Positions 3,442 through 46,634 of a stretch of DNA of 64,000 nt are shown here, in pieces. Positions within the stretch are counted from its first letter, which is position 1; every line of letters begins with the position of its first letter. This DNA comes from Pseudomonadota bacterium (lineage in GTDB: Bacteria; Desulfobacterota; Desulfobulbia; Desulfobulbales; Desulfocapsaceae), in NCBI GenBank assembly GCA_018817385.1, contig JAHIUA010000084.1:1-64000 (forward strand), in the 5' to 3' direction. The translations under genes and the position numbers were made by a program. The notes below the pieces were generated by a model, which saw nothing but the letters and a program-made list of their open reading frames with translations, was not told the origin of the DNA and made no database searches.

Positions 3442-4863
3442 TCATTTCAGTCCAATTATGACGTCCATCATCTCATCAACAGTGGAAAGGAATTTGGCTG
3501 AGGATTCAAAACCTCGCTGATATTGAATGAGGCTGATCATTTCTTCATCCAAAGAGACACCAGATAACCCGTCGCGCATATTTTGAAACTGGACCATAGC
3601 ATCTTCCGCTCCTCCCAGAGCAAGTTTGTTCTGATTGGATTCTATACCCACTTCGGCAGTCATTTTTCCATAATAGGCACCAAAGGTGTCACTGCCGTTG
3701 ATGAGAAAGGTTTCGCCAAGGCTGGAAATAATGAGGGCATTTCTATTGTCCCCAGGAGCAACGGTTGCCGGTGGAGTTGGGGCGCTTGCAGCCGCTACCT
3801 GATTGGAATCGGTAAGAATTACTGACATATTACGGGCTGCATCCAGCCAGGGATCAGAGGCTGGTGGCGGTGGCAGAGGATTGGGAGGAGAAAAAAAGTT
3901 TCGATCAGTAAGTGAATCAAGACCAGCTCCTGCGTAATGAACAGTATTGACTGCTTCGGTAATCTCATAGGCAAGTCTATCAAGATCGTCTTTCAGTGAA
4001 GGAATAAATTGATCCCGGATGTTGACTAAACCTTTGAATTCACCTCCCATTTGGTTCAGACCGATGTCTCTGGTAACACCACCGGTATGGAGGACAAGAG
4101 TCAGGTCACTGCCGCTTGTTACGGCTTCAATTTCCATGGCGATGTTTCCCTGGACCAAGGGAAGGCCTCCTGGCAACTGGACGGCAAGCATGCCTTTAGA
4201 GTCTTCATATGTCTGGATACCTAGGGATGTTGCCAGGTCTTTGGCTAGCAGATCACGACGATCGCGGGCACTGTTTGCAGTTTGACCTTGGACTTCAATG
4301 GTAAAGATCCGTTCGTTGAGTTCAGCGATTTCAGAGATCTGGGAATTGACAGCAGCGACTTTTGATATTAGAGAGTCATTGACATTTTCTTTGACTTTAT
4401 TGAGTTCATTGGCGGTGAGATTGAATTTTTCGGCAAGCAGTTCGCCCCTCTGGATAACGATGTCTCGTTCTACCAGGCCGGAAGGATTGGCGGAGAGTTC
4501 CTGCCAGGAGTCAAAGAAGCGATTTATTTCTGTGGAGATATTTTCTTCACCGATGCTGAAAATTCTTTCCAGTTCGGAAAGTGCATTGGTTTGACCATTC
4601 TGGAGACCAAATTCGATGGATTTTTCCTGGAGCATATTGGTGACAAAGATATCATGGTCACGGCTGACATCGGATATAACAACACCCTGGCCAACAAAAA
4701 AACTACCGAAGGCCATGGAAGGATAGGGAGAAAGCTCTGCACTCTGACGTGAATAGCCTTCGGTGTTGACGTTGGATATATTGTTGCCGACAATCTCGAT
4801 GGACTTCTGGTTTACACCGAGGGCGGTTTTACCGGCGTTGAGTGCTGTGAAGAGTCCTGCCAT
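3442..4863 (-). CDS. flgK: hook-associated protein 1 FlgK
   Basis: A 473-residue axial protein. The N-terminus LFTALNAGKTALGVNQKSIE leads into the rod/hook signature GNNISNVNTEGYSRQ, and the C-terminus SLIQYQRGFESSAKFLSTVD is the conserved D0 helix. It forms the first junction layer on top of the hook. It lies directly after flgN with one base between stop and start. At 473 residues it is short among FlgK proteins (commonly 450-650), suggesting a reduced outer domain. Confidence 0.94.
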   Translation of the reverse strand: MAGLFTALNAGKTALGVNQKSIEIVGNNISNVNTEGYSRQSAELSPYPSMAFGSFFVGQGVVISDVSRDHDIFVTNMLQEKSIEFGLQNGQTNALSELERIFSIGEENISTEINRFFDSWQELSANPSGLVERDIVIQRGELLAEKFNLTANELNKVKENVNDSLISKVAAVNSQISEIAELNERIFTIEVQGQTANSARDRRDLLAKDLATSLGIQTYEDSKGMLAVQLPGGLPLVQGNIAMEIEAVTSGSDLTLVLHTGGVTRDIGLNQMGGEFKGLVNIRDQFIPSLKDDLDRLAYEITEAVNTVHYAGAGLDSLTDRNFFSPPNPLPPPPASDPWLDAARNMSVILTDSNQVAAASAPTPPATVAPGDNRNALIISSLGETFLINGSDTFGAYYGKMTAEVGIESNQNKLALGGAEDAMVQFQNMRDGLSGVSLDEEMISLIQYQRGFESSAKFLSTVDEMMDVIIGLK

Positions 4864-4864
4864 G

Positions 4865-5224
4865 TCACACCTGTCCTGAGAGAAGTCGACCGTTAATTTT
4901 AGAATTTACCATCCCGGCATTGGCTGAGTAGCCGGAGGCAACTGTACGTTTTCCAAAAAATTCCATGGTTTCTCTGATCCAGCCAAGGGTGGCTTTGAAG
5001 AGATAGGCGTTGCGTCTGTTTTCGTGGCGGATGATTCCTGCAATTTCCTTATCCTCTTCATCCAGTACCTTCATGTGTGCCAGAATCTGAATAATTTCTT
5101 CTTTCTCCTCCATGGTCCTGGCCAAGGCTTCCATGTCCAGGGCTTTGGCATTCTCTCGTTCTTTCAGAATAACGTTATGCAAACGTACAAGGTATTCGTG
5201 AGTTGTTCCGGGGCTCATGATCAT
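4865..5224 (-). CDS. flgN: FlgN-type export chaperone
   Basis: A 119-residue, largely helical protein: a long amphipathic helix with LHNVILKERENAKALDMEAL, then MEEKEEIIQIL, ending in a variable tail with SGYSANAGMVNSKING. This C-terminal Y/N/G-rich tail and the position between flgM and flgK are typical of FlgN, the cytosolic chaperone that delivers FlgK and FlgL to the export gate. The start overlaps the flgM stop by 4 bases. Sequence identity in this family is low, so the call rests on length, helix pattern and context. Confidence 0.8.
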   Translation of the reverse strand: MIMSPGTTHEYLVRLHNVILKERENAKALDMEALARTMEEKEEIIQILAHMKVLDEEDKEIAGIIRHENRRNAYLFKATLGWIRETMEFFGKRTVASGYSANAGMVNSKINGRLLSGQV

Positions 5225-5505
5225 TTTGTCTCCATGAGGAACTGAAGCAGATTTGAGGCAACTTTATTCAGATCGGGTTCATAGGATCCATTACTGATTT
5301 GAGCCTTGAGTTCTGCAACCTTTTCTGCCCTGCCACTGTTGTCGCCACCAGCCTGCATTTTATGCACATCCTGTAAAACCGAGGAAAATTGCACCTGATC
5401 TCCTTCCTGCATTGGACCAGTTTTTTTCTCGGTCTGCGCCTTTTCACCTTTTTTTATGCTGCCTATCTGTCCAAGGCCGCCAATTCCGAAAAATTCAACA
5501 CTCAT
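5221..5505 (-). CDS. flgM: anti-sigma28 factor FlgM
   Basis: A 94-residue small acidic protein with a C-terminal FlgM signature, KVAELKAQISNGSYEPDLNK followed by VASNLLQF. FlgM binds FliA until the hook is complete and is then exported. The start at 5505 is preferred: AGGTGAT precedes it, and the longer open frame overlaps the upstream gene. It is followed by flgN with a 4-base overlap. A candidate FliA promoter lies before the upstream unknown gene (6191-6218), so FlgM would be under autogenous control. Confidence 0.88.
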   Translation of the reverse strand: MSVEFFGIGGLGQIGSIKKGEKAQTEKKTGPMQEGDQVQFSSVLQDVHKMQAGGDNSGRAEKVAELKAQISNGSYEPDLNKVASNLLQFLMETK

Positions 5506-5530
5506 GTTATCACCTGTATTCGGTCTTGAT

Positions 5531-6112
5531 TTAAGATACCTGTTCCTGGCTGTCCACGTTTGCCCAGGTGTCAAGTTTGTTCATTACTGCATCATAGGTT
5601 TCGTAAGAGATGTCAGGAAGTGAGCCGCCAAAGGCGTCAAGGGCTTCGCTGAATCCATTTTCTACCCCTTCTTTAATGGCTGCCAGTCTGGAAGGATCGC
5701 CCCCTGCAACAGCTATGGCAAAATCTACAATACGATCAGAAGTTTGTCCAACCCCAAAGTAGCCATCTTCGCCAATAAGTTCTGTGGCCTCTTCCGGGCT
5801 GAGACTACTGATGTCAATTTTCTGGGTGCCATTGGCAGCTTGAAATTCGATTCCCTGCTCTTTGAGCATATTAACAACCAACCCTCTTAGCAGGCTATAT
5901 TGATCCTGCGATGTTTCTGTCTGTATGGTCAGAGAACTGGAGTAGGTCATAGACACTTCCTGATGCCGGCTAATGGTGACTGAATCAGATCCTGTTATCG
6001 GCTTGTTTGGATTAGTTGTCTGTTTATCTGCCAGGCGATTCAAATTTTTATTGTTATGTTGTCGAAGTTCGTGAGGATTGAGATGCGCCTGGTTGCTGAT
6101 TGCATTTGCCAT
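5531..6112 (-). CDS. uncharacterised flagellar-locus protein
   Basis: A 193-residue soluble protein with no signal peptide or membrane segment. The N-terminal 55 residues are polar and low-complexity (many Asn, Gln, Thr). The C-terminal part is better ordered, with SLSPEEATELIGEDGYFGV, then RIVDFAIAVAGGDPSRLAAI and GSLPDISYETYDAVMNKLD. The closing pattern resembles the DUF5610-like proteins found in some flagellar clusters, but I cannot verify that assignment. It is the first gene of the flgM-flgN-flgK-flgL-csrA-fliW set, just after a candidate sigma28 promoter, so a late flagellar role (secreted substrate or assembly helper) is plausible. Function unknown. Confidence 0.75.
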   Translation of the reverse strand: MANAISNQAHLNPHELRQHNNKNLNRLADKQTTNPNKPITGSDSVTISRHQEVSMTYSSSLTIQTETSQDQYSLLRGLVVNMLKEQGIEFQAANGTQKIDISSLSPEEATELIGEDGYFGVGQTSDRIVDFAIAVAGGDPSRLAAIKEGVENGFSEALDAFGGSLPDISYETYDAVMNKLDTWANVDSQEQVS

Positions 6113-6190
6113 TATTTTCGCCTCCTTGCAGTCTTATTATGCGTCCGTGCATAGAATGTAAGAGATCTATTTGAATTTCTCTTATACTCT

Positions 6191-6218
6191 ATATCGGATT
6201 GTTAGAAGGAGAAGTTTA
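6191..6218 (-). promoter_or_regulatory. candidate FliA (sigma28) promoter
   Basis: On the minus strand TAAA is followed after 16 bases by TCCGATAT, close to the sigma28 consensus TAAA-N15-GCCGATAA. It lies about 80 bases upstream of the gene at 6112, which leads the flgM-flgN-flgK-flgL group, the class usually driven by FliA. The spacing is one base long and the -10 has mismatches, so support is moderate. Confidence 0.45.
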
Positions 6219-6242
6219 GGGTCTTCGCCTTAACTTCGTAAC

Positions 6243-6269
6243 TTTTTGTAACATAACCTGTTACAAAAA
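6243..6269. terminator. AT-rich inverted repeat, possible bidirectional terminator
   Basis: TTTTTGTAAC, a 7-base loop, then GTTACAAAAA: a perfect 10-base stem ending in A/T tracts. It follows flgJ and precedes the late-gene promoter. The GC content of the stem is low, so termination would be leaky. The rest of the 365-base gap (6113-6477) holds the sigma28 candidate and no reading frame. Confidence 0.4.
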
Positions 6270-6477
6270 ATAAAGTATCTCATCAGAGCTGCTCCTTCCA
6301 GTTAAGGCACATATCCTTTTTTGTCAGGGGGCATGCCTTGCAGTTGATAAGAGTTATCAAGGAGTCAGGTTAGGGAAAGCGGAGGAACGAAGCGGTGCTG
6401 TGTGGTTTTTTTATCTGGACGCTTGCTTGGAATCTTTAAATTTGGTTTAGGATAAAAACGATATTCTATTCCAATTG

Positions 6478-20815: not shown

Positions 20816-21214
20816 CTAGCCAAGTTGTTCTATGCGATCACTTGGACTGACTACCTCGGTAAGGCGTATTCCAAATTTATCACCTACCATCACCGCTTCT
20901 CCCTTGGCAATAAGTTTGGAATTGACGAAGAGGTCAAGAGGTTCTCCGGCAAGTTTGTCGAGCTCAATAACATAGCCTTCTCCCATTTTTAAAAGATCTT
21001 TGAGAAGAATTTTACTCCGTCCAACCTCCACTGAGATTTGTAGTGGAACATCATAGAGAAACTCAAGACCACGTTGCCCTTGAGACGAAAAAGGTCCTGA
21101 AGATTTTTTTTGATACTCTGAGGGATCCGGAGTATCTGTTTCATCACTATTCAAAAGTTCTTTGATCTCATCTGGGTCTGGTTTGGCGTTTTTTTGTATA
21201 TTATCTGTTTTCAT
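20816..21214 (-). CDS. fliN: flagellar motor switch protein FliN
   Basis: A 132-residue C-ring protein. The N-terminal 55 residues are polar and acidic; the C-terminal SpoA domain has LEFLYDVPLQISVEVGRSKI, LKDLLKMGEGYVIELDKLAG and VNSKLIAKGEAVMVGDKFGI, then RLTEV. Start at 21214 is chosen because AGGAG lies seven bases upstream. It overlaps the fliM end by 14 bases. FliN forms the base of the C-ring and also binds the FliH export complex. Confidence 0.95.
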   Translation of the reverse strand: MKTDNIQKNAKPDPDEIKELLNSDETDTPDPSEYQKKSSGPFSSQGQRGLEFLYDVPLQISVEVGRSKILLKDLLKMGEGYVIELDKLAGEPLDLFVNSKLIAKGEAVMVGDKFGIRLTEVVSPSDRIEQLG

Positions 21215-22208
21215 TATGTTCTCCTGAATCATACACACCGGTCAAGTGGATAGCTTTTTTTCCGCTGATGGTCCCGGGAATTGCGAAAAATTTGAGATTG
21301 TCTTCAACGAGTATTTTTAGAGGTGCATTCGGGTCGTAATCAATGTTGATGATGTCGCCTTTCTTGAAATTCATTATCTTCTTGACGGGTAGGGTGATTG
21401 TTCCTGATTGTGCTATAACAGTTGTAGACATCTCTTGCAGTTTAGAAATCAGGAGCTCTTGCCACCCAGATTGGCGAATAGTCTTAATGGTCAGGAGATC
21501 TCGTAGTTGTTCCCGGACCGGATCGAGTGTTGTAATGGGAAAGACAATATCGAACATGCCGGAAAGACTTCCAACTTGAATTTTGAAGTGCCCGATGAGG
21601 ACTTCTGCATCCGGTTCTGCAATGGAAACAAGTCTTGAGTTGCTTTCTATTTTGACAATGGAAGATTTAATTTTTATGACCTGGGTAAAGGCCTTGTCAA
21701 TGTCTAAACAGGCCTTGGCAATGATTGATTTGAGGACATTGAGTTCAATGGTGGTTGGCTTGCGCTCCAGATGTATGGGGGCGAGTTCCGTTGAGGCACC
21801 GAGCATAATTTCAATAAGAGAAAAACAGAGTTCTGAATCAAGAGCTACGAGGGCACCATTTTTAAGGGGCTCGAGATTCAAGACACTTATCGCTCCGGAA
21901 TTTTTCTGGGACATCAGATATTCTTGGAACTCAATGGTAGTGATTTCTGTCCTGGTGATGGTGAATGTTCTCTGGAGGTGGTTGGTCAGGGTGATGGCAA
22001 AATTTTGGGCAAAGGCATCCAGGATAATATCGAGATTAGGGATGCGATGCTGTTCCTCTGACGATCTTGCCATCTGAAAGAGATTCAGGGCGGTGACATT
22101 TACGTTGGAAAACCTTTTATCGTCACCTTGAAGGTCCGTAGATACCTGGCCGCTTTTTATGGCAGCCAATAATTCAGCAATCTCTTCCTTTTTCAGAATT
22201 GGTTCCAC
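21201..22208 (-). CDS. fliM: flagellar motor switch protein FliM
   Basis: A 335-residue C-ring protein: an N-terminal tail with LKKEEIAELLAAIKSGQ (the CheY-binding region in the family), a central CheC-like domain (about 45-230), and a C-terminal SpoA domain with VKKIMNFKKGDIINIDYDPN. The N-terminal CheY-binding motif is less acidic than the classical LSQxEIDALL but recognisably derived. It is the predicted target of the CheY encoded at 38966. It precedes fliN and follows fliL. Confidence 0.93.
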   Translation of the reverse strand: MEPILKKEEIAELLAAIKSGQVSTDLQGDDKRFSNVNVTALNLFQMARSSEEQHRIPNLDIILDAFAQNFAITLTNHLQRTFTITRTEITTIEFQEYLMSQKNSGAISVLNLEPLKNGALVALDSELCFSLIEIMLGASTELAPIHLERKPTTIELNVLKSIIAKACLDIDKAFTQVIKIKSSIVKIESNSRLVSIAEPDAEVLIGHFKIQVGSLSGMFDIVFPITTLDPVREQLRDLLTIKTIRQSGWQELLISKLQEMSTTVIAQSGTITLPVKKIMNFKKGDIINIDYDPNAPLKILVEDNLKFFAIPGTISGKKAIHLTGVYDSGEHNENR

Positions 22209-36314: not shown

Positions 36315-38741
36315 TTATTGGGTGACGTTGGCATATTCTAGCTCTTTCTGTGCCATTTTTATCCAAAGGGGACTGCTACCTGTTTCGACAAGTTCTTCGT
36401 ATATTTTTAGTGATGCTTTACTATCACCTCTGGTTTTGGCAAGTTCGGCGAGTCGGTAAAGCGATTGGTCATAATGAATGGAGTCAGCCGGAATATTCGT
36501 ATAAAATTTTTCCGCCTTGTCATAAACATTAAGCTGATAAAGGCTTTCGGCAAGCATGAATTCGCTTCGGGAACGTGGCTCACCAGTTGCCACAAGCGGT
36601 TGTTCGAGAATTTCAATGACTTTTGGATAATTATTCTCGTGAAAATAGAGTGAGGCTGCAACGAGTGAGAAATCCCCAGTGTTGGGTATGGGGTGCGGAA
36701 GGAGGGCAATGGCCTCTTGATACGCTTCTTCTGCGATAAGACTTTTTATGCGCAGGAGTAAAATGTCATTCCTGTATAACCCATTGGGGTAGTGGTAACT
36801 GTATTGGTCGGAATAGTCTTCTACTATCTTGTAGTCTCCATGGTCATAAGCAGCTGAGATAAGGGGCAGGTAATACTGCTCTTTCTGGTCTTCAGAGGAA
36901 ATACTTATGAGATAAAGATAGAGCTTTGACGCTTCATTGTAAATACCAACCGCATGATATGATTGCGCTATTTCTGTTAACAGGTTGATGTCTACCCAGT
37001 TTTTTATAAAGAGTTTCCGGTTTTGCTTGGCAATAACCAGTGCCTCCACATACATTCCCTTCTGGACATATTCTTTGATGACTTGAGGAAGGAGTTCTAT
37101 GAGCAGGGCCTGGCCTGTTTCGTAAAGCTCACCTTTTCTGAAATTTCTTAGAAACTCCATGAGCAGGTTGACACTTTTGATTTTTTCATTGTTAAGGCTG
37201 TAGGCCAGGGCCTCTTTGAAGCTTGCCTCTTCCCTTGTTTCTCGGGAGACAGATTTTTCCGCAAGAGCCTTATAGTAGAGCAAGGCTTCCGGGGCCCAGT
37301 TTTTGAGATTGAGGTATTTTATATCAGTTTTCTTCAACGCCCCTCTGAAGCTGGCCTCAGTACCGGGATAGGTGTTTTCGATTCGAGCAAAGTAATCAAC
37401 CATTCCTAGTTCGGACTTGTAATGGAGTTCTGCCATGTGTTTCCGGTAGTTGATTATTCCCAGTAGCTGTTTGTCATTAATATGATTGGCTAACGTATTG
37501 TAATAGAATGCTGAATCATGGAATTGCTTGTGTTGGTAGAGGGTGTCGCAATAGCCGTTTAGTGAGAAAGTTTTGTCGAGGAGAATTTCATGCTTTTCAA
37601 GTAACTGGTAGCCCACATAGGCTTTAATTAAGTCCCCGGTTGCATACCAGTAATCCGCCTGTCGAAGTTCTTTGATGAGAAGTGTCTGCTCAGGGTAGGG
37701 AATATCATCTCGCTGAAGAAGCTCTTGCATACGCTCTAATTGATCCGTTGCCAAGGCGGTTTCAATCTGGGTGATGAGGAAATAAGGTGTCAAGGGATTG
37801 GCAGCGGTCATGAAGGGTTCAAGATTCCGTAATTCATAGTCTGCAATATAGGGATCTTGAAATTTCGCTCTCAGTAGTGCGAGAAGGTAACGGGCCAAAA
37901 CACCAATTTCTTCTTCCTCATATTCTTCAGCAAGGAGATAAAATTGTTTGTAGGCGTCGGGAAAATTTCCTTCCCGCAATAGGCTGTCTCCATAGGTAAG
38001 AGCAAGCTTTTTCTTCACTTCCGGGTCTTTTTCCCTGGCAATGCTTTCGAGAAGGAGGACCTGCGTATCACCCCACAGATTTTGCTCGGCAAGGCTATAT
38101 ATTTCTGGATTTAGAAGAGAGCTGTTTTTTTCTTTTTCGGGAGGAAGAAGGGCTATGGCGGGAAAGGGAAGCACCGTGTTTTGAACGGGAAGCGAAATGG
38201 TAACCTTGGATTCATAAATCCGAAAGAAACTCTTCCAGTCCGCTGCATAAGGTGAGGCGATCAGGGGATTGGAGTAGTCTTTAGTTGTCCTTTTGACTAA
38301 GGTCAACCCCTCAAGTCTTGCGGAAAAGTCTGGTAATGCGCTACTGTATGGATTTCCCAAAAGAATGTTGACAGTGATCTTCTCTTCTTTTTCATTAGGA
38401 ATCACATCAAATTGTTGTGGCGGATAGCGAAAATAGAATGAAAGAATGGTCTTGTTGTTTTTATTGACTGACAAAATTTTGACTATTTTGTCATCAGGCT
38501 TGAAGTAGGTGAAATCGGGCGTTACTGTTGTGTTTTCAAGGATGAAATCTACTCTTTTCTCCCTGATATTGGTGTGATAGGTTGGTGTTTTTGTGAAAGA
38601 ACAATATAATTCTATTGTATTATTTCCGTCTACCCTGTTCATGCGCGTAAGAATACTTTCGGCCCGAGTCTGACCAGGAGTCAGACAGAGAAGGATAAAG
38701 AGAATAAGAAGTGGTGTTTTTATTGTATTATTCATAGGCAT
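36315..38741 (-). CDS. exported TPR-repeat protein heading the flagellar locus
   Basis: About 808 residues. An N-terminal signal peptide (TPLLILFILLCLTPGQTRAE) is followed by a beta-rich domain of about 100 residues (NTIELYCSFTKTPTYH, KRVDFILENTTV), which resembles an AMIN-like periplasmic module. From about residue 230 to the end it is a chain of helical TPR-like repeats (for example GDSLLREGNFPDAYKQFYLL, AESLYQLNVYDKAEKFYTNI). It is therefore periplasmic or outer-membrane attached. The start is uncertain: ATG at 38741 or 38735, with no clear ribosome binding site; a TTG at 38774 adds residues before the signal peptide. Its place ahead of flgB suggests a role in motor assembly or a periplasmic motor accessory ring. 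Function unknown. Confidence 0.8.
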   Translation of the reverse strand: MPMNNTIKTPLLILFILLCLTPGQTRAESILTRMNRVDGNNTIELYCSFTKTPTYHTNIREKRVDFILENTTVTPDFTYFKPDDKIVKILSVNKNNKTILSFYFRYPPQQFDVIPNEKEEKITVNILLGNPYSSALPDFSARLEGLTLVKRTTKDYSNPLIASPYAADWKSFFRIYESKVTISLPVQNTVLPFPAIALLPPEKEKNSSLLNPEIYSLAEQNLWGDTQVLLLESIAREKDPEVKKKLALTYGDSLLREGNFPDAYKQFYLLAEEYEEEEIGVLARYLLALLRAKFQDPYIADYELRNLEPFMTAANPLTPYFLITQIETALATDQLERMQELLQRDDIPYPEQTLLIKELRQADYWYATGDLIKAYVGYQLLEKHEILLDKTFSLNGYCDTLYQHKQFHDSAFYYNTLANHINDKQLLGIINYRKHMAELHYKSELGMVDYFARIENTYPGTEASFRGALKKTDIKYLNLKNWAPEALLYYKALAEKSVSRETREEASFKEALAYSLNNEKIKSVNLLMEFLRNFRKGELYETGQALLIELLPQVIKEYVQKGMYVEALVIAKQNRKLFIKNWVDINLLTEIAQSYHAVGIYNEASKLYLYLISISSEDQKEQYYLPLISAAYDHGDYKIVEDYSDQYSYHYPNGLYRNDILLLRIKSLIAEEAYQEAIALLPHPIPNTGDFSLVAASLYFHENNYPKVIEILEQPLVATGEPRSRSEFMLAESLYQLNVYDKAEKFYTNIPADSIHYDQSLYRLAELAKTRGDSKASLKIYEELVETGSSPLWIKMAQKELEYANVTQ

Positions 38742-38757
38742 TGGTTTGTTTTGTTGA

Positions 38758-38773
38758 TGCAAAAAACGGACCA
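38758..38773 (-). promoter_or_regulatory. candidate sigma54 promoter ahead of the flagellar locus
   Basis: Minus strand TGGTCCGTTTTTTGCA matches TGGYACG-N4-TTGCA at all but one defined position. It points to the TPR-flgB series. The predicted start of transcription is only a few bases before the chosen ATG, so the leader would be very short; that is odd and lowers confidence. Confidence 0.4.
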
Positions 38774-38940
38774 AGTTGTGCGGTATCCCGTGTTGGCGTT
38801 ATTTTTTTTGTTGCCGGGGGAGCTTGAATAGTTTTTTTGAGAAAGATGTTTGATTTTTGTTCTTGATTATTGATATGATTTATTCAAATATCTCCACAAG
38901 GTAATCTTAGATTCTCGAAATTAGTACTGTGCTATTTTAA

Positions 38941-38965: not shown

Positions 38966-39337
38966 ATGGGAAAAAATGTATTGTTGGTCGATGATTCCAG
39001 CACAATGAGAAAAATTGTTGGCAGATCGCTTCGTCAGGCCGGAATTGATTTTGATAATATTTTTGAAGCTGCTGATGGAATAGAAGCCTTGGAAATCCTT
39101 GAAAAAGAGCACATTGATATCGTTCTCAGTGATATTAATATGCCTAATATGGATGGCATCAGTTTTCTTCGTGAAAAGGCAACTCGCGACAACATAAAGG
39201 GGATCCCGGTACTGATGATTTCAACTGAAACAGGAGATGATATTATTGGGGAAGCTAAATCTCTTGGGGCTGTCGGGGCCATAAAAAAGCCCTTTACTCC
39301 GGATAAGGTCAATGAGGTTCTTGGGCCGCTTCTGTAG
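38966..39337 (+). CDS. cheY: CheY-type single-domain response regulator
   Basis: A 123-residue receiver domain with no output domain. Phosphorylation residues are all present: acidic pair Asp9-Asp10 (LLVDDSSTMRK), phosphoacceptor Asp56 (VLSDINMPNMDG), Ser86/Thr87 (MISTE) and Lys108 (KKPFTP). Such proteins bind FliM when phosphorylated. No CheA kinase is in the window, so the phosphodonor is elsewhere. It is the first gene of a plus-strand group that continues with two CheX-type phosphatases, which are expected to dephosphorylate it. Confidence 0.92.
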   Translation: MGKNVLLVDDSSTMRKIVGRSLRQAGIDFDNIFEAADGIEALEILEKEHIDIVLSDINMPNMDGISFLREKATRDNIKGIPVLMISTETGDDIIGEAKSLGAVGAIKKPFTPDKVNEVLGPLL

Positions 39338-39597
39338 AGTGCTTTGGAAAATTCTTTTTTTTGATCAAGCTCGGATCAGCAACATCGAAGTCTCCGGTTC
39401 TCCATGGGACTTCGATTTTTTTTTCGGAATGTTGGCACAGGTGTCATGTGGGAAAATATGTTTGGGTACATGTCGCTGTTTGTGGGATGATACCATATTT
39501 TCCATAACCGAATTGGTGTGTAGCCGGTCAAATGATTCCCCGAGGTTTAGGGATCATTTTTTTCAGATGGCCTGAAACAACAAGCAAAGAGGGTTGT

Positions 39598-40050
39598 GTG
39601 AGTATTGAAGAGAAGGTGATTGGGTCGACCAAGGAGATTTTTTCTTCTATGGTCATGATGGAAATTAGTGTTAAGAGGGTGATGGATTATAGCGGCCCTC
39701 TTAATAACACTATTACCGGTATGGTTGGGCTTGCTGGTATTTATAGAGGAGTTTTGGCCATACATATTCCTTATCCTGTTGCAATGGCCATTACCGCCAG
39801 CTTCCTTGGCATGGACGTGGACGAAATAAATGAGGATGTTCATGATGCCATAGGCGAACTTGCCAATATGCTGGGTGGAAATGTGAAAACGATTCTTTCA
39901 GAGAAAGGAAGAGATATAGAGTTGTCACTCCCGTCTACCATTTCCGGGAGTGAGTATAGCTTCCAGTTGGATAAGGAGGTCGACACGGTGATAATAGAGT
40001 TTGATACTGGTCAAGGACAGTTTATGGTCGAAATGGTATTGGAAAAATAA
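39598..40050 (+). CDS. cheX: CheX-type CheY-P phosphatase, first copy
   Basis: About 150 residues from a GTG start at 39598, preceded by AGAGGG; an ATG further upstream in frame adds a non-family leader. The CheX active-site pattern D-x3-E-x2-N is seen in DAIGELANMLGG (Asp, Glu, Asn), followed by GRDIELSLPSTISG with the conserved Pro 22 residues after the Asn. The family removes phosphate from CheY-P using the Glu and Asn. It lies 260 bases after cheY; this spacer holds no gene. Confidence 0.85.
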   Translation: MSIEEKVIGSTKEIFSSMVMMEISVKRVMDYSGPLNNTITGMVGLAGIYRGVLAIHIPYPVAMAITASFLGMDVDEINEDVHDAIGELANMLGGNVKTILSEKGRDIELSLPSTISGSEYSFQLDKEVDTVIIEFDTGQGQFMVEMVLEK

Positions 40051-40186: not shown

Positions 40187-40663
40187 ATGAATGAAACGGA
40201 AATAAATATTGGGCAGGCTATCATGGACAGTACTCGAGAAGTTTTCAGTACCATGTTGATGGTCGAGTTGAAAGCAGACGAACCGATCGAAGGACAAGGC
40301 GGTGAGGTCGATTCGAATATTACAAGTATGCTTGGGCTTGGTAAAGATATTAGAGGAATGCTGTCTGTTCATTGCCCAGGGGAGGTGGCAAAGGATATTA
40401 CCGGGACATTTCTTGGTATGGAAGTAGAAGAGATTGACGAGGATGTAAAAGACGCCATCGGAGAAATTGCTAATATGGTAGCTGGAAACCTGAAGGTGTT
40501 TTTTCAAAAACACGGTAGAGATATAGAGCTAGCCATACCGACTTCGGTTGTCGGAAATTCTTTCCGAACCAGTGGTATGTCCGGTGCACAACGAGTTGCT
40601 GTGCCCTTTTCCATGAATGGAAGAACCTTTCTTGTTGAGTTGAAGTATATGGAAAACACTTAA
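40187..40663 (+). CDS. cheX: CheX-type CheY-P phosphatase, second copy
   Basis: A 158-residue paralogue of the preceding gene. It has the same frame of motifs: MDSTREVFSTMLMVELKADE, GMLSVHCPGEVAKDITGTFL, GMEVEEIDEDVKDAIGEIAN (D-x3-E-x2-N) and GRDIELAIPTSVVG. Two adjacent CheX paralogues suggest either a heterodimer or two phosphatases for different receivers. It is followed after 156 bases by the triple-domain protein. Confidence 0.88.
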   Translation: MNETEINIGQAIMDSTREVFSTMLMVELKADEPIEGQGGEVDSNITSMLGLGKDIRGMLSVHCPGEVAKDITGTFLGMEVEEIDEDVKDAIGEIANMVAGNLKVFFQKHGRDIELAIPTSVVGNSFRTSGMSGAQRVAVPFSMNGRTFLVELKYMENT

Positions 40664-40819: not shown

Positions 40820-43357
40820 ATGTCCGATAATAAAGCCCAAAAAAAAATAGACAAGATCCTCGAAGTTATCCAACCCCGCATTGGAGAGGAGGTGGGAGGG
40901 CTTATTGGTGCAACCCTTTCCCTTTCAAATCTTTCCACTCGAATTGTCAGTAAAAATGATTTTTTTGCTGAACCAGCAGGGAAACTTGTTTTGGCAGAAA
41001 TTGAAGTGGCGGGTGAAGTGGAAGGGAAGGGATGTCTGCTGGTCCCGATCAAGGCTGCCATTCGACTGGGTGGCGTTCTCATTATGCTTCCGGATAATGA
41101 GTTAACTACCATTATTGCAGCGGAAGAATACAGTGAGGAATTAGCCGATTCGTATGGGGAGATTGCCAATATTATAGCTGGCGCTTATTCCTCTACATTT
41201 GAAGAGATGTACTCCAAGCCCTGTCGGTTCATTCGTAAGAAACTAGAAGTTCTACCATCTCCAACAGCAGTCCTTGAATCTGACGAACTCGTTCTTGAGC
41301 AAAATTATTATCAAGTCACAGTGTCAATGTCTTTGAATGACAAGGCCATGGGTGATTTGATCATGCTTATGCCTGCAGCGCCGTTTGGAGTGGACGAAGA
41401 AGCTCCTGGCCTTGCCAAAGATACCAAGGAGCAAGACGTGCCCTTGGTTGGCGCAGCTAGTCCGGAAACTGCTGCTGTGGCCAATGAAGGAGCGGAACGT
41501 CCTGAACAAATGGCAGACCCTGGAACACCTCCGGTATTTGGCATGTCAGCTGATAAAGCAAAAGGGAAGTTAGATGCTGTTCTCGAGGCAGTTCGGTCTC
41601 GTCTTGGAGAGGAGGTTGGGGGGCTCATTGGCGCAACCCTCGCCTTTACTGATCTCTCCACTCGCTTTGTCAGTAAGAGAGACTTTTTTGTCGATCCTTC
41701 TGCTAAGGTTGTTTGTGCCGAAATAGATGTTAGTGGCGAACTGGTAGGAAAAGGGGGGGTATTGGTGTCGCTCAAGGATGCCATCCGATTGGGCGGAACA
41801 CTCCTTATGATTCCGAATAGTGAGTTGAATGAAATTGTTGCAGCGGAAGAATACAATGAAGAATTGGCCGATTCGTATGGGGAAATTGCTAATATTTTAG
41901 CTGGTACTTTTTCCTCTACACTTGAAGAACTGTATCCCAAGTCCTGCCGCTTTATTCGGAAGGAGCTGAGCCTTGTAACGCCAGGACAGGTTGACATTGA
42001 ATCTGATGAGCCAATTCCCAACCAGAATTATTATCAGGCTTCAATGGCTATGGCCATGAATGATAAAGATATTGGCAGGTTGGTCATGCTCATCCCTGCC
42101 GCAACATTTGGTGTTGAGAAAGAAGTTTCTGCTTTTGACGATGCTCAGCCTTCCACTGCATCAGCAGGGCTTGCCAATGCCACAGAAAATGGTGAACCTG
42201 TCGCAGATTCTCATCAATCACCGGAGTTCGTTACACCTCCCAAGCTGGCAGAGGCTGGGCATGCCGGGAAGTCTTTTGATATTGATAAACAGAAAAAACG
42301 TGTTGATGCTTGTCTGGCAGAGTGTCGAAAACGTATGGCTGATGAAGTTGGTGCTTTGCTTGGCAAAGACGTGAAGTTAACAGAACATGAAGTCCGTCTT
42401 GTCAGCAAAGAAGATTATTTTTTTGATGAGGCGTCTGGGAAGCAGATCCTTGTCAACATGGATGTAGTAGGAGAAATTGAAGGTAAAGGGTATCTTTTTG
42501 TTGGCTTAAAGGATGCTATATATATAGGTGGAACGCTTATCATGCTGCCGCCTTCCGAGTTGGATCTTGTCGTTAACGATGAAGATTTCAGCGAGGATAC
42601 TGAAGATGCTTATGGAGAAATTGCAAATATTATATCAGGTGTCTATACCGCAGTTTTTGAGGAAAAGTATCCTCAAAAATGTCGGTTCATAAAAAATGGT
42701 CTTGAGAAGGTAATTCCTCTTAAAGTAGATATTGCCTCTCAGGAGCCGATGCCTGATCAACTCTATTATATGGATAGCAGCAGATTAACCATCGGAACAT
42801 GTGAGCTGGGGAAAATACAGATGCTTTTTCCTGCAACACTCCTCCAACTGGAGCAATTGAGCCAGGTGGCTGCCCATGCAGATGAACGGAGTGATGAATC
42901 CGGAAGGACAGCTGCCCCTGGTACTGGAATTGCTGTTGGGGCAGAAAGTGAGGAAATTGGTGCATCGCTGCAAGCGAATAACAACGGTTCTCGAGATCCA
43001 GAGTTGCTCATCGTCAGTAATAATAAACAGGAGTGTGTGAAAGTAACAGCTGTTTTGAATGAAAGGAATATATCGTACAGAGTTCTCAACTACAAAGACA
43101 GTGTCAGCGATTATTTGCCTGGAGAAGTCAGGGCAATTTTTCTTTTGATGGCAGATGTTGATGAGAAGGGATTAGGTGTAGCCATTAAAATCTCCGGTGT
43201 CAGTCAAGTTCCATTGATAGCCGCAGGACCGGAATGGACACGGACAAAGGTGATCAAAGCGGTAAAATATGGGGTGGATGATATCCTCCTTACTCCTGCC
43301 AGTTCTGATGATATTGGCGAAAAAATCGATTCTATCTCGGCTCAGATGGCCGCTTGA
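40820..43357 (+). CDS. three tandem CheX/CheC-like domains fused to a pseudoreceiver
   Basis: An 845-residue soluble protein. Three homologous domains lie at about 1-190, 243-431 and 487-675. Each holds the phosphatase-like signature D-x3-E-x2-N: Asp110/Glu114/Asn117, Asp351/Glu355/Asn358 and Asp596/Glu600/Asn603 (DSYGEIANI twice, DAYGEIANI once). Domains 1 and 2 are near-identical even at base level, a recent duplication of about 730 bases; domain 3 is older. Acidic, Pro/Ala/Glu-rich linkers join them. The C-terminus (about 725-845) looks like a receiver fold (ELLIVSNNKQECVKVTAVL ... GVDDILLTPASSD) but lacks the acidic pair, phospho-Asp and Lys. It is probably a multivalent phosphatase or scaffold for CheY-P. 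Function unproved; I know of no characterised protein with this architecture. Confidence 0.82.
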   Translation: MSDNKAQKKIDKILEVIQPRIGEEVGGLIGATLSLSNLSTRIVSKNDFFAEPAGKLVLAEIEVAGEVEGKGCLLVPIKAAIRLGGVLIMLPDNELTTIIAAEEYSEELADSYGEIANIIAGAYSSTFEEMYSKPCRFIRKKLEVLPSPTAVLESDELVLEQNYYQVTVSMSLNDKAMGDLIMLMPAAPFGVDEEAPGLAKDTKEQDVPLVGAASPETAAVANEGAERPEQMADPGTPPVFGMSADKAKGKLDAVLEAVRSRLGEEVGGLIGATLAFTDLSTRFVSKRDFFVDPSAKVVCAEIDVSGELVGKGGVLVSLKDAIRLGGTLLMIPNSELNEIVAAEEYNEELADSYGEIANILAGTFSSTLEELYPKSCRFIRKELSLVTPGQVDIESDEPIPNQNYYQASMAMAMNDKDIGRLVMLIPAATFGVEKEVSAFDDAQPSTASAGLANATENGEPVADSHQSPEFVTPPKLAEAGHAGKSFDIDKQKKRVDACLAECRKRMADEVGALLGKDVKLTEHEVRLVSKEDYFFDEASGKQILVNMDVVGEIEGKGYLFVGLKDAIYIGGTLIMLPPSELDLVVNDEDFSEDTEDAYGEIANIISGVYTAVFEEKYPQKCRFIKNGLEKVIPLKVDIASQEPMPDQLYYMDSSRLTIGTCELGKIQMLFPATLLQLEQLSQVAAHADERSDESGRTAAPGTGIAVGAESEEIGASLQANNNGSRDPELLIVSNNKQECVKVTAVLNERNISYRVLNYKDSVSDYLPGEVRAIFLLMADVDEKGLGVAIKISGVSQVPLIAAGPEWTRTKVIKAVKYGVDDILLTPASSDDIGEKIDSISAQMAA

Positions 43358-43472: not shown

Positions 43473-44972
43473 TCAGGATTCCTCCCACATCCCCTGGAGA
43501 TCTTTTTTCTTAATTTTTTCAAGCAGGGTTGTCCTTTTAAGATTGAGCAGCTTTGCTGCCTCTTTTTTGTTCCCGCCGCTAAGTTTCATAGCTTGGATAA
43601 TAAGCAGTGTCTCGTAATCATTAATCAGCTCATTGAAATCCACCTCTCCTGCTTCCAGTTGACTGTCAGTGGGAAGTGTTGTCTGGAGTGGTTGAGAGGT
43701 CTTGGCGCCAGGTTGAGAAAAAGATGTTCCTGTAATAATGTTGGCAATCTTTTCCTGATCTATTGTACTTGGGTCAAATTCTTCCAGAAAACGTTCCGGG
43801 ATATCTTCCATCTGGATTTCTCGGCCGCTACAGAGAATGGACATATGTTGGACCATATTCTGCAATTCTCGTACATTGCCTTTCCAGTTATAAGCAAGAA
43901 GGACGGTCATTATCTCGTGTGGAATTGAAAATCGTTCTCTCCCTCGTTGAATAGTATATTGATCAATAAACACATCGAGGAGAAGAGGGATGTCCTCTTT
44001 CCGATCCTTCAGCGGTGGAATGTGCAGGGGAATGACAGATAACCGATAATAGAGATCTTCTCGGAATTGTCCTTTGGAGACAAGCTGTTCAAGATCACAG
44101 TGGGTGGCCGCAACAATACGGGTATCTACCGGAGTTGCCTTTAATCCGCCAACTGGTTCAAACTCTTTTTCCTGGAGAACTCGGAGTAATTTTGCCTGCA
44201 ACGAGGGCTTCATGTCACCTATTTCATCAAGAAAAAGGGTGCCTCCATCTGCATACTGGATGCGGCCGATTTTGTTTTGAACAGCCCCGGTAAAAGCACC
44301 TTTGGTGTATCCGAAGAGTTCACTCTCGAGAAGATCATCCGGAATTGCCGCGCAATTCACGGGGACAAAGTGTTTATTCTTGCGCCTGGAGTGGAGGTGG
44401 ATAGCTTTAGCTACAAGTTCTTTACCGGTTCCTGATTCACCTCTGATAAGAACTGTTGCAAAATCATCTTCGGAAATTTTGGTGATCAGGTCAAAAAGGT
44501 TTTTCATGGCTGGAGTTGCACCAATAAGACCATAAAAATCGTTCTTTGATTTATTATTGCTTTCTGGAACAGAATTATATTGAATGCCGAGCTTTATGCA
44601 GGCCCGTTTCAGGGCCAGTTGAATTTCTGCCTCCTGGTATGGGATGTTGATATAATAAAAAAGATTGTGGTCAAGAATTTCCTGCTCAAGTTCCAGATCG
44701 TCTTGAGGTACGGCTGCAACGATCAGAAGATCGGGGAAGCTGCTCTGGATTTCGTCGAGTAATGTTATCCCGTTGATTTCAGGAGAGAGGCCAAGATCCA
44801 GAAAAAGAATGGTAATATTTTTTTCCTGGAGTGTATTTACCAAGTCTTTCTGGTTGGAACTGACATGGAAATTGCCTGGGGAGATTTGCTCAAAGAGTTC
44901 TATGCAGGTCATCTGCGTCTCGGGAGCGCGACTGGCAAAAAGTATAGTGGGTACTGCTGGCATAGGTATCAA
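43473..44972 (-). CDS. sigma54-dependent activator with degenerate receiver (FlrC/FlbD/FleR-like)
   Basis: A 499-residue regulator. The N-terminal receiver-like domain (about 5-128) keeps a candidate Asp59 (LFLDLGL) but has lost the acidic pair (FASRAP) and the Lys (YINIPYQ). The AAA+ domain (about 150-390) is intact: GESGTGKELVAKAIHLHSRR (Walker A), GAFTGA (sigma54 contact) and GGTLFLDEIGDM (Walker B). A Fis-type HTH ends the protein (GGNKKEAAKLLNLKRTTLLE). Its location next to the flagellar locus and the sigma54 sites there suggests it drives flagellar genes. The damaged receiver implies control by protein binding or level rather than by standard phosphorylation. It is convergent with the triple-CheX gene. 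Confidence 0.9.
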   Translation of the reverse strand: MIPMPAVPTILFASRAPETQMTCIELFEQISPGNFHVSSNQKDLVNTLQEKNITILFLDLGLSPEINGITLLDEIQSSFPDLLIVAAVPQDDLELEQEILDHNLFYYINIPYQEAEIQLALKRACIKLGIQYNSVPESNNKSKNDFYGLIGATPAMKNLFDLITKISEDDFATVLIRGESGTGKELVAKAIHLHSRRKNKHFVPVNCAAIPDDLLESELFGYTKGAFTGAVQNKIGRIQYADGGTLFLDEIGDMKPSLQAKLLRVLQEKEFEPVGGLKATPVDTRIVAATHCDLEQLVSKGQFREDLYYRLSVIPLHIPPLKDRKEDIPLLLDVFIDQYTIQRGRERFSIPHEIMTVLLAYNWKGNVRELQNMVQHMSILCSGREIQMEDIPERFLEEFDPSTIDQEKIANIITGTSFSQPGAKTSQPLQTTLPTDSQLEAGEVDFNELINDYETLLIIQAMKLSGGNKKEAAKLLNLKRTTLLEKIKKKDLQGMWEES

Positions 44973-46106: not shown

Positions 46107-46634
46107 ATGCAGATAGGAAAAAGAAAACGAGCTGCTTTTGTTACCAATATTGTGGGGGTGCTGCTTACTGTGCTCCTGGTTTTCTGTGGTGTGGCAAGAG
46201 GGGAGGCGGGGCAGTATATTAAGGCAACCGTGATAAAAGTTGTTGATGGAGATACTATTCAGGTCCTGTATAAGGGGAGGTCCATTCGAGTGAGATTATG
46301 GGGGATTGATACTCCTGAATGGAGGCAGCCTTTTTCAAAAATTGCTAAAAAACATACTATAAAGCTCCTTGCCGACCCAGAGGTAGAATTGGAAGAAAAA
46401 GATTGGGATGATTACGGTCGCCTGGTGGCGATTGTTATCACGAAGAAAAAACAGTGTTTGAATGAGGAATTATTACGAGCTGGTCTGGCGTGGGTCCATA
46501 TCTATTACTGTAAAGAAGCAATATGTGACAGATGGTATAAAATTGAACGGGAAGCACGGGGGAAACGATCCGGTCTTTGGCGTGATAACTCACCGACACC
46601 TCCTTGGGTTTGGAAGCGACAAAAACACTCTTAG
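46107..46634 (+). CDS. secreted staphylococcal-nuclease-like endonuclease
   Basis: A 175-residue protein with an N-terminal signal or anchor (about 10-34, VVGVLL-type hydrophobic run) and an SNase domain: VIKVVDGDTIQVLY, VRLWGIDTPEWRQPFSK (catalytic Asp, Thr, Glu) and DDYGRLVAIV (second catalytic Arg). These match the calcium-dependent thermonuclease active site. It probably degrades extracellular or periplasmic nucleic acid. The start ATG overlaps a TATAAT-like string, so a longer leader cannot be judged. Confidence 0.88.
   Translation: MQIGKRKRAAFVTNIVGVLLTVLLVFCGVARGEAGQYIKATVIKVVDGDTIQVLYKGRSIRVRLWGIDTPEWRQPFSKIAKKHTIKLLADPEVELEEKDWDDYGRLVAIVITKKKQCLNEELLRAGLAWVHIYYCKEAICDRWYKIEREARGKRSGLWRDNSPTPPWVWKRQKHS

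Follow-up and report, generated by a model that had tools for sequence, protein, structure and literature searches.

A tandem CheC/FliY-like protein ending in a pseudoreceiver, encoded with CheY beside a sigma-54 activator in Desulfocapsaceae

Phosphatases of phosphorylated CheY (CheY-P) are mostly considered for their effect on motor rotation, and one of them, CheC, carries two sites. Pseudoreceivers are receiver-like domains without the acceptor Asp. In the accessible parts of two papers, FlbD is described as having a receiver that lacks some key residues and as being regulated through the binding of FliX (PMC3096577), apparently not by phosphorylation (PMC3930126). Here we describe a gene (40820..43357, + strand) in a 64,000-nucleotide stretch of DNA, hereafter the window (positions 1 to 64,000 of contig JAHIUA010000084.1, assembly GCA_018817385.1), from a Desulfocapsaceae bacterium of the Desulfobacterota. 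Its 845-residue product consists of CheC/CheX/FliY-like repeats, three in number, followed by a C-terminal pseudoreceiver. Because loci without CheY keep the pseudoreceiver while their repeats decay, comparison of sequences among relatives suggests that the repeats evolve with CheY and the pseudoreceiver with the flagellum. A Geobacter chemotaxis survey (PMC2577667) counts cheX genes and, in the part available, mentions no such fusion; CheX in Campylobacterota is treated in PMC9321776, likewise seen in part. We found no description of the family in literature on CheX/CheC/FliY architecture, pseudoreceivers, tandem domains and sigma-54, a search that covered the openings of abstracts, with most subscription papers and all preprints outside it.

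The gene begins with ATG and its frame is open along the whole of 40820-43357. This open frame, together with the recurrence of the same fusion in many genomes, leads us to reject a frameshift or fusion artefact. Repeat 1 (40820..41410, +; residues 1-197), repeat 2 (41543..42133, +; residues 242-438) and repeat 3 (42275..42874, +; residues 486-685) each comprise a domain of about 190 residues, joined in a whole-chain model by low-confidence linkers of 44-51 residues. Over about 195 residues, repeats 1 and 2 are 59% identical, and repeat 3 is 39% and 43% identical to the other two. The earlier note on this DNA had read a D-x3-E-x2-N signature three times, and the residues are exactly those it gave: D110/E114/N117, D351/E355/N358 and D596/E600/N603, with all three phosphatase-type sites intact. 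In one homologue (locus L032, positions 3759-6296, the same gene as in L004), which also has three repeats, repeat 1 contains an in-frame TGA, either an assembly error or decay.

The Pfam CheX model (PF13690) matches three stretches of the 845-residue protein, scoring 51.7 bits where 27 are required, and the CheC model (PF04509) scores 29.3 bits where 22 are required. In a whole-genome search the single repeats scored 19.6-22.5 bits, each under the Pfam CheX cut-off, and they are therefore divergent members of the family. The FliN-like domain (PF01052) was not matched in the protein by the Pfam scan, nor was the Thermotoga-type CheX equivalog NF041094 at E<=1; the two single-domain CheX proteins encoded in the same unit, CheX1 and CheX2, reach 47.8 and 61.2 bits against the latter model, likewise under its cut-off of 280. 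The motif of the repeats falls within the Pfam CheX and CheC matches and lines up with that of CheX1 and CheX2, and its D, E and N are unchanged in 23 of 23 aligned repeats from the window protein and named relatives. Because the repeats align with one another, PF13690 finds three stretches and these three residues are invariant, the motifs are not chance matches. On the first helix of the repeat Glu24 is conserved and the place of the Asn is mostly Gly, Ala or Ser, which makes a half site.

We modelled repeat 2 from an alignment of 23 repeats that held no CheX sequence. In the model (predicted local distance difference test, pLDDT, 91.7; predicted template modelling score, pTM, 0.87) the motif residues, at 110, 114 and 117 in repeat numbering, lie on the predicted active-site helix (106-130) and not away from it. 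A Foldseek search of the Protein Data Bank (PDB) with this model yielded 38 chains with E<=0.001, every one a FliY, CheC, CheX, CheC-like/chemotaxis or FliM/C-ring protein, so that the repeats land in the CheC/CheX/FliY/FliM superfamily and not in an unrelated one. The earlier note had called them CheX/CheC domains, and while the superfamily stands, CheX as the nearest member does not: VIA-align Z values run up to 19.8 for FliM-middle, then 19.1 for FliY (4hyn), 16.7 for CheC (1xkr) and 13.5 for CheX (1xko), with the first row outside the CheC-like superfamily at only 3.8. By predicted fold, then, the repeats are nearer FliM-middle and FliY than CheX, each being an entire domain of the CheC/FliY/FliM type that holds a single complete site. 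A PDB sequence search with the repeat profile gave chance-level matches only, including CheX 3hm4 (E=0.82).

The pseudoreceiver (42986..43354, +) spans residues 723-845. Its receiver identity is found by sequence (2qzj, E=0.0013; profile search, E=9.6e-7), and by predicted fold it aligns to receivers with Z of about 14-15 across 110-120 residues. The earlier suspicion that it cannot be phosphorylated is supported by the 30 homologues, all from the window's order, on which our column statistics were drawn. In an ungapped alignment to 2qzj the place of the phosphoacceptor is Leu776, a column that holds Val in 23, Ile in 4 and Leu in 3 of the homologues; neither it nor column 777 has Asp in any of the 30. 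The place of the Lys, 825, is Thr in the window and in 24 of 30 homologues, and Lys in none. An alternative, gapped register, from a profile containing CheY, puts Asp779 on the acceptor place, in a column that is unconserved and most often Glu (14/30). Relatives partly retain the acidic pair after beta1, with Asp at its two positions in 18 and 19 of the 30. By eye, the homologues at loci L104 and L107, of the f39/f115 families, retain the Lys and have Gly at the acceptor place. We conclude from alignment and model that the C-terminus has a receiver fold that lacks both the phosphoacceptor Asp and the Lys.

What the pseudoreceiver conserves lies elsewhere. W806 T807, A814, Y817 G818, D821 I822 and P826 are invariant, and the signature W-T-x6-A-x2-Y-G-x2-D-I is present in 30 of 30 homologue rows. 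Conservation peaks in beta4-alpha4-beta5 and its loops (mean column entropy 0-0.9 bits), with alpha1, beta2 and alpha2 at 2.3-2.4 bits. The beta4-alpha4-beta5 face is one that receivers commonly use for partners.

The same fusion is widespread among relatives and not a one-off, with a repeat copy number that ranges from 0 to 3. The sample of near relatives comprised 96 genomes, the window's own included, with homologues called at E<=0.001. Matches were found in 51 of the 96, one of which, in G061, is spurious; this weak match falls in a RadA-like open reading frame (ORF; judged by eye) and was rejected. In the window's own taxonomic family (59 genomes) a homologue is present in 46 of 46 FliM-positive genomes and absent from 12 of 13 FliM-negative ones, the exception being G013, which is 76% complete. 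Outside the family, the order contributes 37 genomes; three of them (G079, G088 and G091) have a true homologue, and all three belong to the lower of two classes of FliM score. Against PF02154, the lower class, made up of the window's family with G061, G079, G088 and G091, scores about 41-131 bits; the higher class, 26 further genomes of the order, scores 175-197 bits, and none of these has the pseudoreceiver gene (0/26). This division suggests that a distinct flagellar lineage goes with the gene. Across the phylum, the pseudoreceiver profile matched 20 of 395 genomes, belonging to 13 of the 245 genera sampled, with E<=1e-15. The distant homologues have one or two repeats, and CheY, one or two CheX genes and the homologue stand in a row in 13 of their 14 loci. 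The named loci are eight: six of Desulfocapsa, one of Desulfobulbaceae and one from an assembly labelled 'Proteobacteria bacterium'.

The contrast between loci with and without CheY carries our main conclusion. CheY was seen in 39 loci (the window, 25 relatives' loci and 13 loci of the distant forms), and all fully read repeats of these are D-E-N. Ten loci are CheY-less, nine from genomes without a match at E<=1e-20 and one, G463, judged at the locus only; the pseudoreceiver is retained, with the activator adjoining, in 10 of 10. Their repeats are reduced or altered in various ways. Three (G021, G046 and G056) have a single D-E-N repeat, and G463 has a single repeat reading A-E-N, the motif Asp having been lost. 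Four (G029, G043, G053 and G079) have two repeats each with the site Asn lost, the motif in the lowest-scoring repeats (L055 and L057, 16-20 bits) being read from a weak alignment. In G027 and G042 no repeat is recognised, and G027 keeps an N-terminal stretch resembling a remnant. Three pairs under the same genus label differ in the same way: G033 (three repeats, CheY) versus G046 and G056 (one repeat, no CheY), G367 (intact, CheY) versus G079 (degenerate, no CheY), and G268 (two repeats, CheY) versus G463 (one repeat, no CheY at the locus). CheA had no match in eight of the nine CheY-less genomes with G463 set aside, G042 having a partial match. CheA likewise had no match in G005 (78% complete) or G007 (85% complete), yet G005 has CheY at its locus, L037.

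The neighbour that accompanies the pseudoreceiver is a convergent gene for an NtrC-type sigma-54 activator (43473..44972, −), with 239 bits to PF00158 and a receiver that barely passes its Pfam cut-off (PF00072, 30.5 bits against 30.2). By eye this receiver is without the usual acidic pair and Lys; among homologues the acceptor Asp is kept in some and lost in others. Of 50 genomes, 41 have the activator at the locus. In 10 of these 41 loci (L050, L053, L054, L060, L099-L103 and L110) it starts near the AAA+ domain, with an N-terminal extension of at most 42 residues, and Pfam finds a receiver in none of the eight short activators so scanned. A homologue at E<=1e-90 was found in 13 of 24 genomes queried, namely 11 of 11 FliM-positive ones, G013 and G034; among the 12 FliM-negative genomes without the pseudoreceiver, G034 (70% complete) is the one that has it. 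In the window's family, to judge by these sequences, the protein acts like an activator that is tied to the flagellum and often has no receiver of its own. The earlier note had guessed that the repeat protein might bind the neighbouring activator, and their adjacency in every CheY-less locus supports this indirectly. A small secreted nuclease-like gene at 46107-46634 of the window, whose product we take to resemble staphylococcal nuclease, is also near the activator in many relatives.

The repeat gene is the fourth of a unit whose order, CheY, CheX1, CheX2, three-repeat gene, is fixed. CheY (38966..39337, +), the first, is a canonical receiver (PF00072, E=2.7e-25) whose best NCBIfam model is CheY, at 88.6 bits under a cut-off of 189; nothing else in its own genome matches it at E<=1e-20, and its orthologues in loci of the window's family are 75-98% identical. 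CheX1 (39532..40050, +; PF13690, 83 bits) and CheX2 (40187..40663, +; 76.7 bits) are conserved neighbours with a single CheX domain each and the intact motifs DAIGELAN and DAIGEIAN; the true start of CheX1 is probably later than the listed ORF start at 39532. On one flank are a flgBC-fliF row and, divergent from CheY, a gene for a TPR-like protein (36315..38774, −; TPR_19 under its cut-off), a conserved flank that adjoins most loci of the window's family. On the other flank are the activator and a CRP-like gene. At L104 (9733-11907) and L107 (9932-12148) a TPR-like ORF of similar size, seen by eye, lies between the homologue and flgB, and BLAST with the window's TPR protein did not match either ORF. 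Separate genes for FliM (21201-22208) and FliN (20816-21238) are both present in the window, for which reason we reject the repeat protein as a replacement C-ring FliY. Elsewhere in the genome, CheA has one match, on another contig, and the only CheZ match is under its cut-off (21.3 against 30.7 bits); the CheX-family matches, five in all, lie inside the unit. At L045 (9259-12168) the genome's only CheA ORF, of 970 residues, includes a receiver-like stretch 29% identical to CheY.

We tentatively favour, without giving it even odds, a flagellum-linked adaptor with two ends, in which the repeats engage CheY-P and the pseudoreceiver docks a flagellar partner, most likely the activator. The one to three repeats would be docking and dephosphorylation sites of the CheC/CheX/FliY type that take the state of the CheY of the same unit, and they may additionally drain CheY-P. 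The pseudoreceiver would be a docking module independent of phosphorylation, binding the flagellar partner by its conserved beta4-alpha4-beta5 face. Because the activator is adjacent and its own receiver is weak or missing, it is the probable partner, on which the pseudoreceiver would act in trans in the manner of a receiver. CheY-P bound to the repeats would then alter the interaction of the pseudoreceiver with its partner, so that chemotaxis activity is signalled to flagellar gene expression. The binding and hydrolysis of CheY-P, the contact between pseudoreceiver and activator, and the direction of regulation are all inferred from sequence. A more specific version, a direct coupler in which an array of CheY-P-binding phosphatase domains carries a detached, non-phosphorylatable receiver, and this receiver regulates in trans a sigma-54 activator with a decayed or lost receiver, with CheY-P setting flagellar expression, seems to us somewhat unlikely.

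Several observations weigh against the adaptor. The adjacency of pseudoreceiver and activator could be flagellar synteny. The activator is missing from 9 of 50 loci, being elsewhere in the genome in G004, G012 and G041, and six f39/f115 loci are without it, their neighbours being CheY, CheX and flagellar genes; the activator matches in f39/f115, 45-54% identical, may be paralogues. Nor is degeneracy of the activator's receiver universal, that at L097 (f112) being near-canonical at 55.9 bits. G061 has FliM and an activator homologue, the latter on a 5.5-kb contig, with no pseudoreceiver at E<=1e-10. A scan of the window for sigma-54 sites found 10 with 7.8 expected, no better than chance. In the whole-chain model the domains fold and the packing between them is unreliable (pTM 0.32). 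The link of repeats to CheY is not strict, as one intact repeat persists in three CheY-less genomes; several of the CheY-less genomes are 81-94% complete, so that single absences can be false; and G463 keeps CheA, with two matches, none near the locus, where its congener G268 has one nearby. On a tree of the activator AAA+ domain (41 rows), both CheY and the trait of having at least two repeats, all intact, change six times, and along supported branches four independent pairs fall 4:0 in the predicted direction, which is not significant (p=0.125); with only four such pairs p=0.05 is out of reach. Scored for the trait of all repeats being intact, the pairs give a median of 3:0, and one pair shows no difference. 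In the tree labels three-repeat proteins were scored as having two, which leaves the intact/at-least-two trait unaffected; L065 was scored CheY-positive although its contig stops before CheY (CheX1 and CheX2 are present), L058 was scored as having two intact repeats where a run of N leaves one readable, and L038 has no CheY label. Outside the tree are the nine activator-less loci, L069 and L076, and L036 was omitted as a copy of L065.

A serious rival, possible though on the doubtful side, is that the protein is a CheY-P phosphatase array on the side of the motor, with the repeats giving high capacity and the pseudoreceiver anchoring them to the flagellar base or C-ring, and no role in transcription. 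It fits the nearness of the repeat fold to FliM-middle (Z reaching 19.8) and to FliY (19.1), the intact sites wherever CheY is seen, the lack of a CheZ above cut-off and the confinement of CheX-family matches to the unit, and the presence of flgBC-fliF next door. The unit already has CheX1 and CheX2, however, and flagellates in which no CheY was found keep the pseudoreceiver when the repeats are degenerate or gone, which argues for a role beyond placing a phosphatase. The same retention tells against a pseudoreceiver that mimics CheY and fills the active sites of the repeats in cis, tuning the phosphatase. A receiver fold in one chain with phosphatase-type sites invites that idea of autoinhibition, but the pseudoreceiver is kept where repeats are degenerate or unrecognised (L054-L057, L059 and L060), and its beta4-alpha4-beta5 region (mean entropy 0.8-0.9 bits) is better conserved than the loops that follow beta1 (1.5) and beta3 (1.8). 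We rate autoinhibition the least probable of the readings. The decoy or the pure phosphate sink that the earlier note had offered is thus disfavoured as the whole story.

It is also improbable that the protein is a scaffold for an assembly checkpoint, with a structural protein of the flagellum or the TPR neighbour as its partner instead of the activator. A TPR gene adjoins in most loci of the window's family, a TPR-like ORF precedes flgB at L104 and L107, where the activator is not adjacent, and the gene co-occurs with FliM; against this, the loci of f74, f95 and f112 have the activator alongside but no match to the window's TPR protein. The separate evolution of repeats and pseudoreceiver disfavours a pure phosphatase or cis decoy as a full account and favours the two-ended adaptor. 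Lineages that lost CheY and kept the pseudoreceiver are ready-made controls for separate roles of the two ends, which makes both directly testable. If this family couples the state of CheY-P to a sigma-54 activator of the flagellum, flagellar synthesis would come under feedback from chemotaxis activity, and no such route from chemotaxis to flagella turned up in the literature covered, as far as its accessible parts go.

Among known systems, FliY, CheC and CheX (PF13690/PF04509), the CheY-P phosphatases, share with the window protein a fold, an E-x2-N with a preceding Asp on a long helix, and a CheY in the unit. The window's protein family differs from them in having up to three domains per chain with one full site each and a C-terminal pseudoreceiver, and from FliY in having no FliN-like tail. 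CheX1 and CheX2 of the same unit share the site motif and the neighbours, but each consists of one shorter domain, with 24% identity to repeat 1. With other pseudoreceivers the family has in common a receiver fold that has lost the acceptor Asp, to which it adds a signature of its own and fusion behind CheC-like repeats. The FliX-FlbD pair of Caulobacter offers a likeness in a sigma-54 flagellar activator, a receiver without key residues and control by a partner; we draw this as an analogy and claim no homology, and in the part of PMC3096577 available FliX is given no phosphatase-like domains or receiver, whereas the window protein combines the two in one chain.

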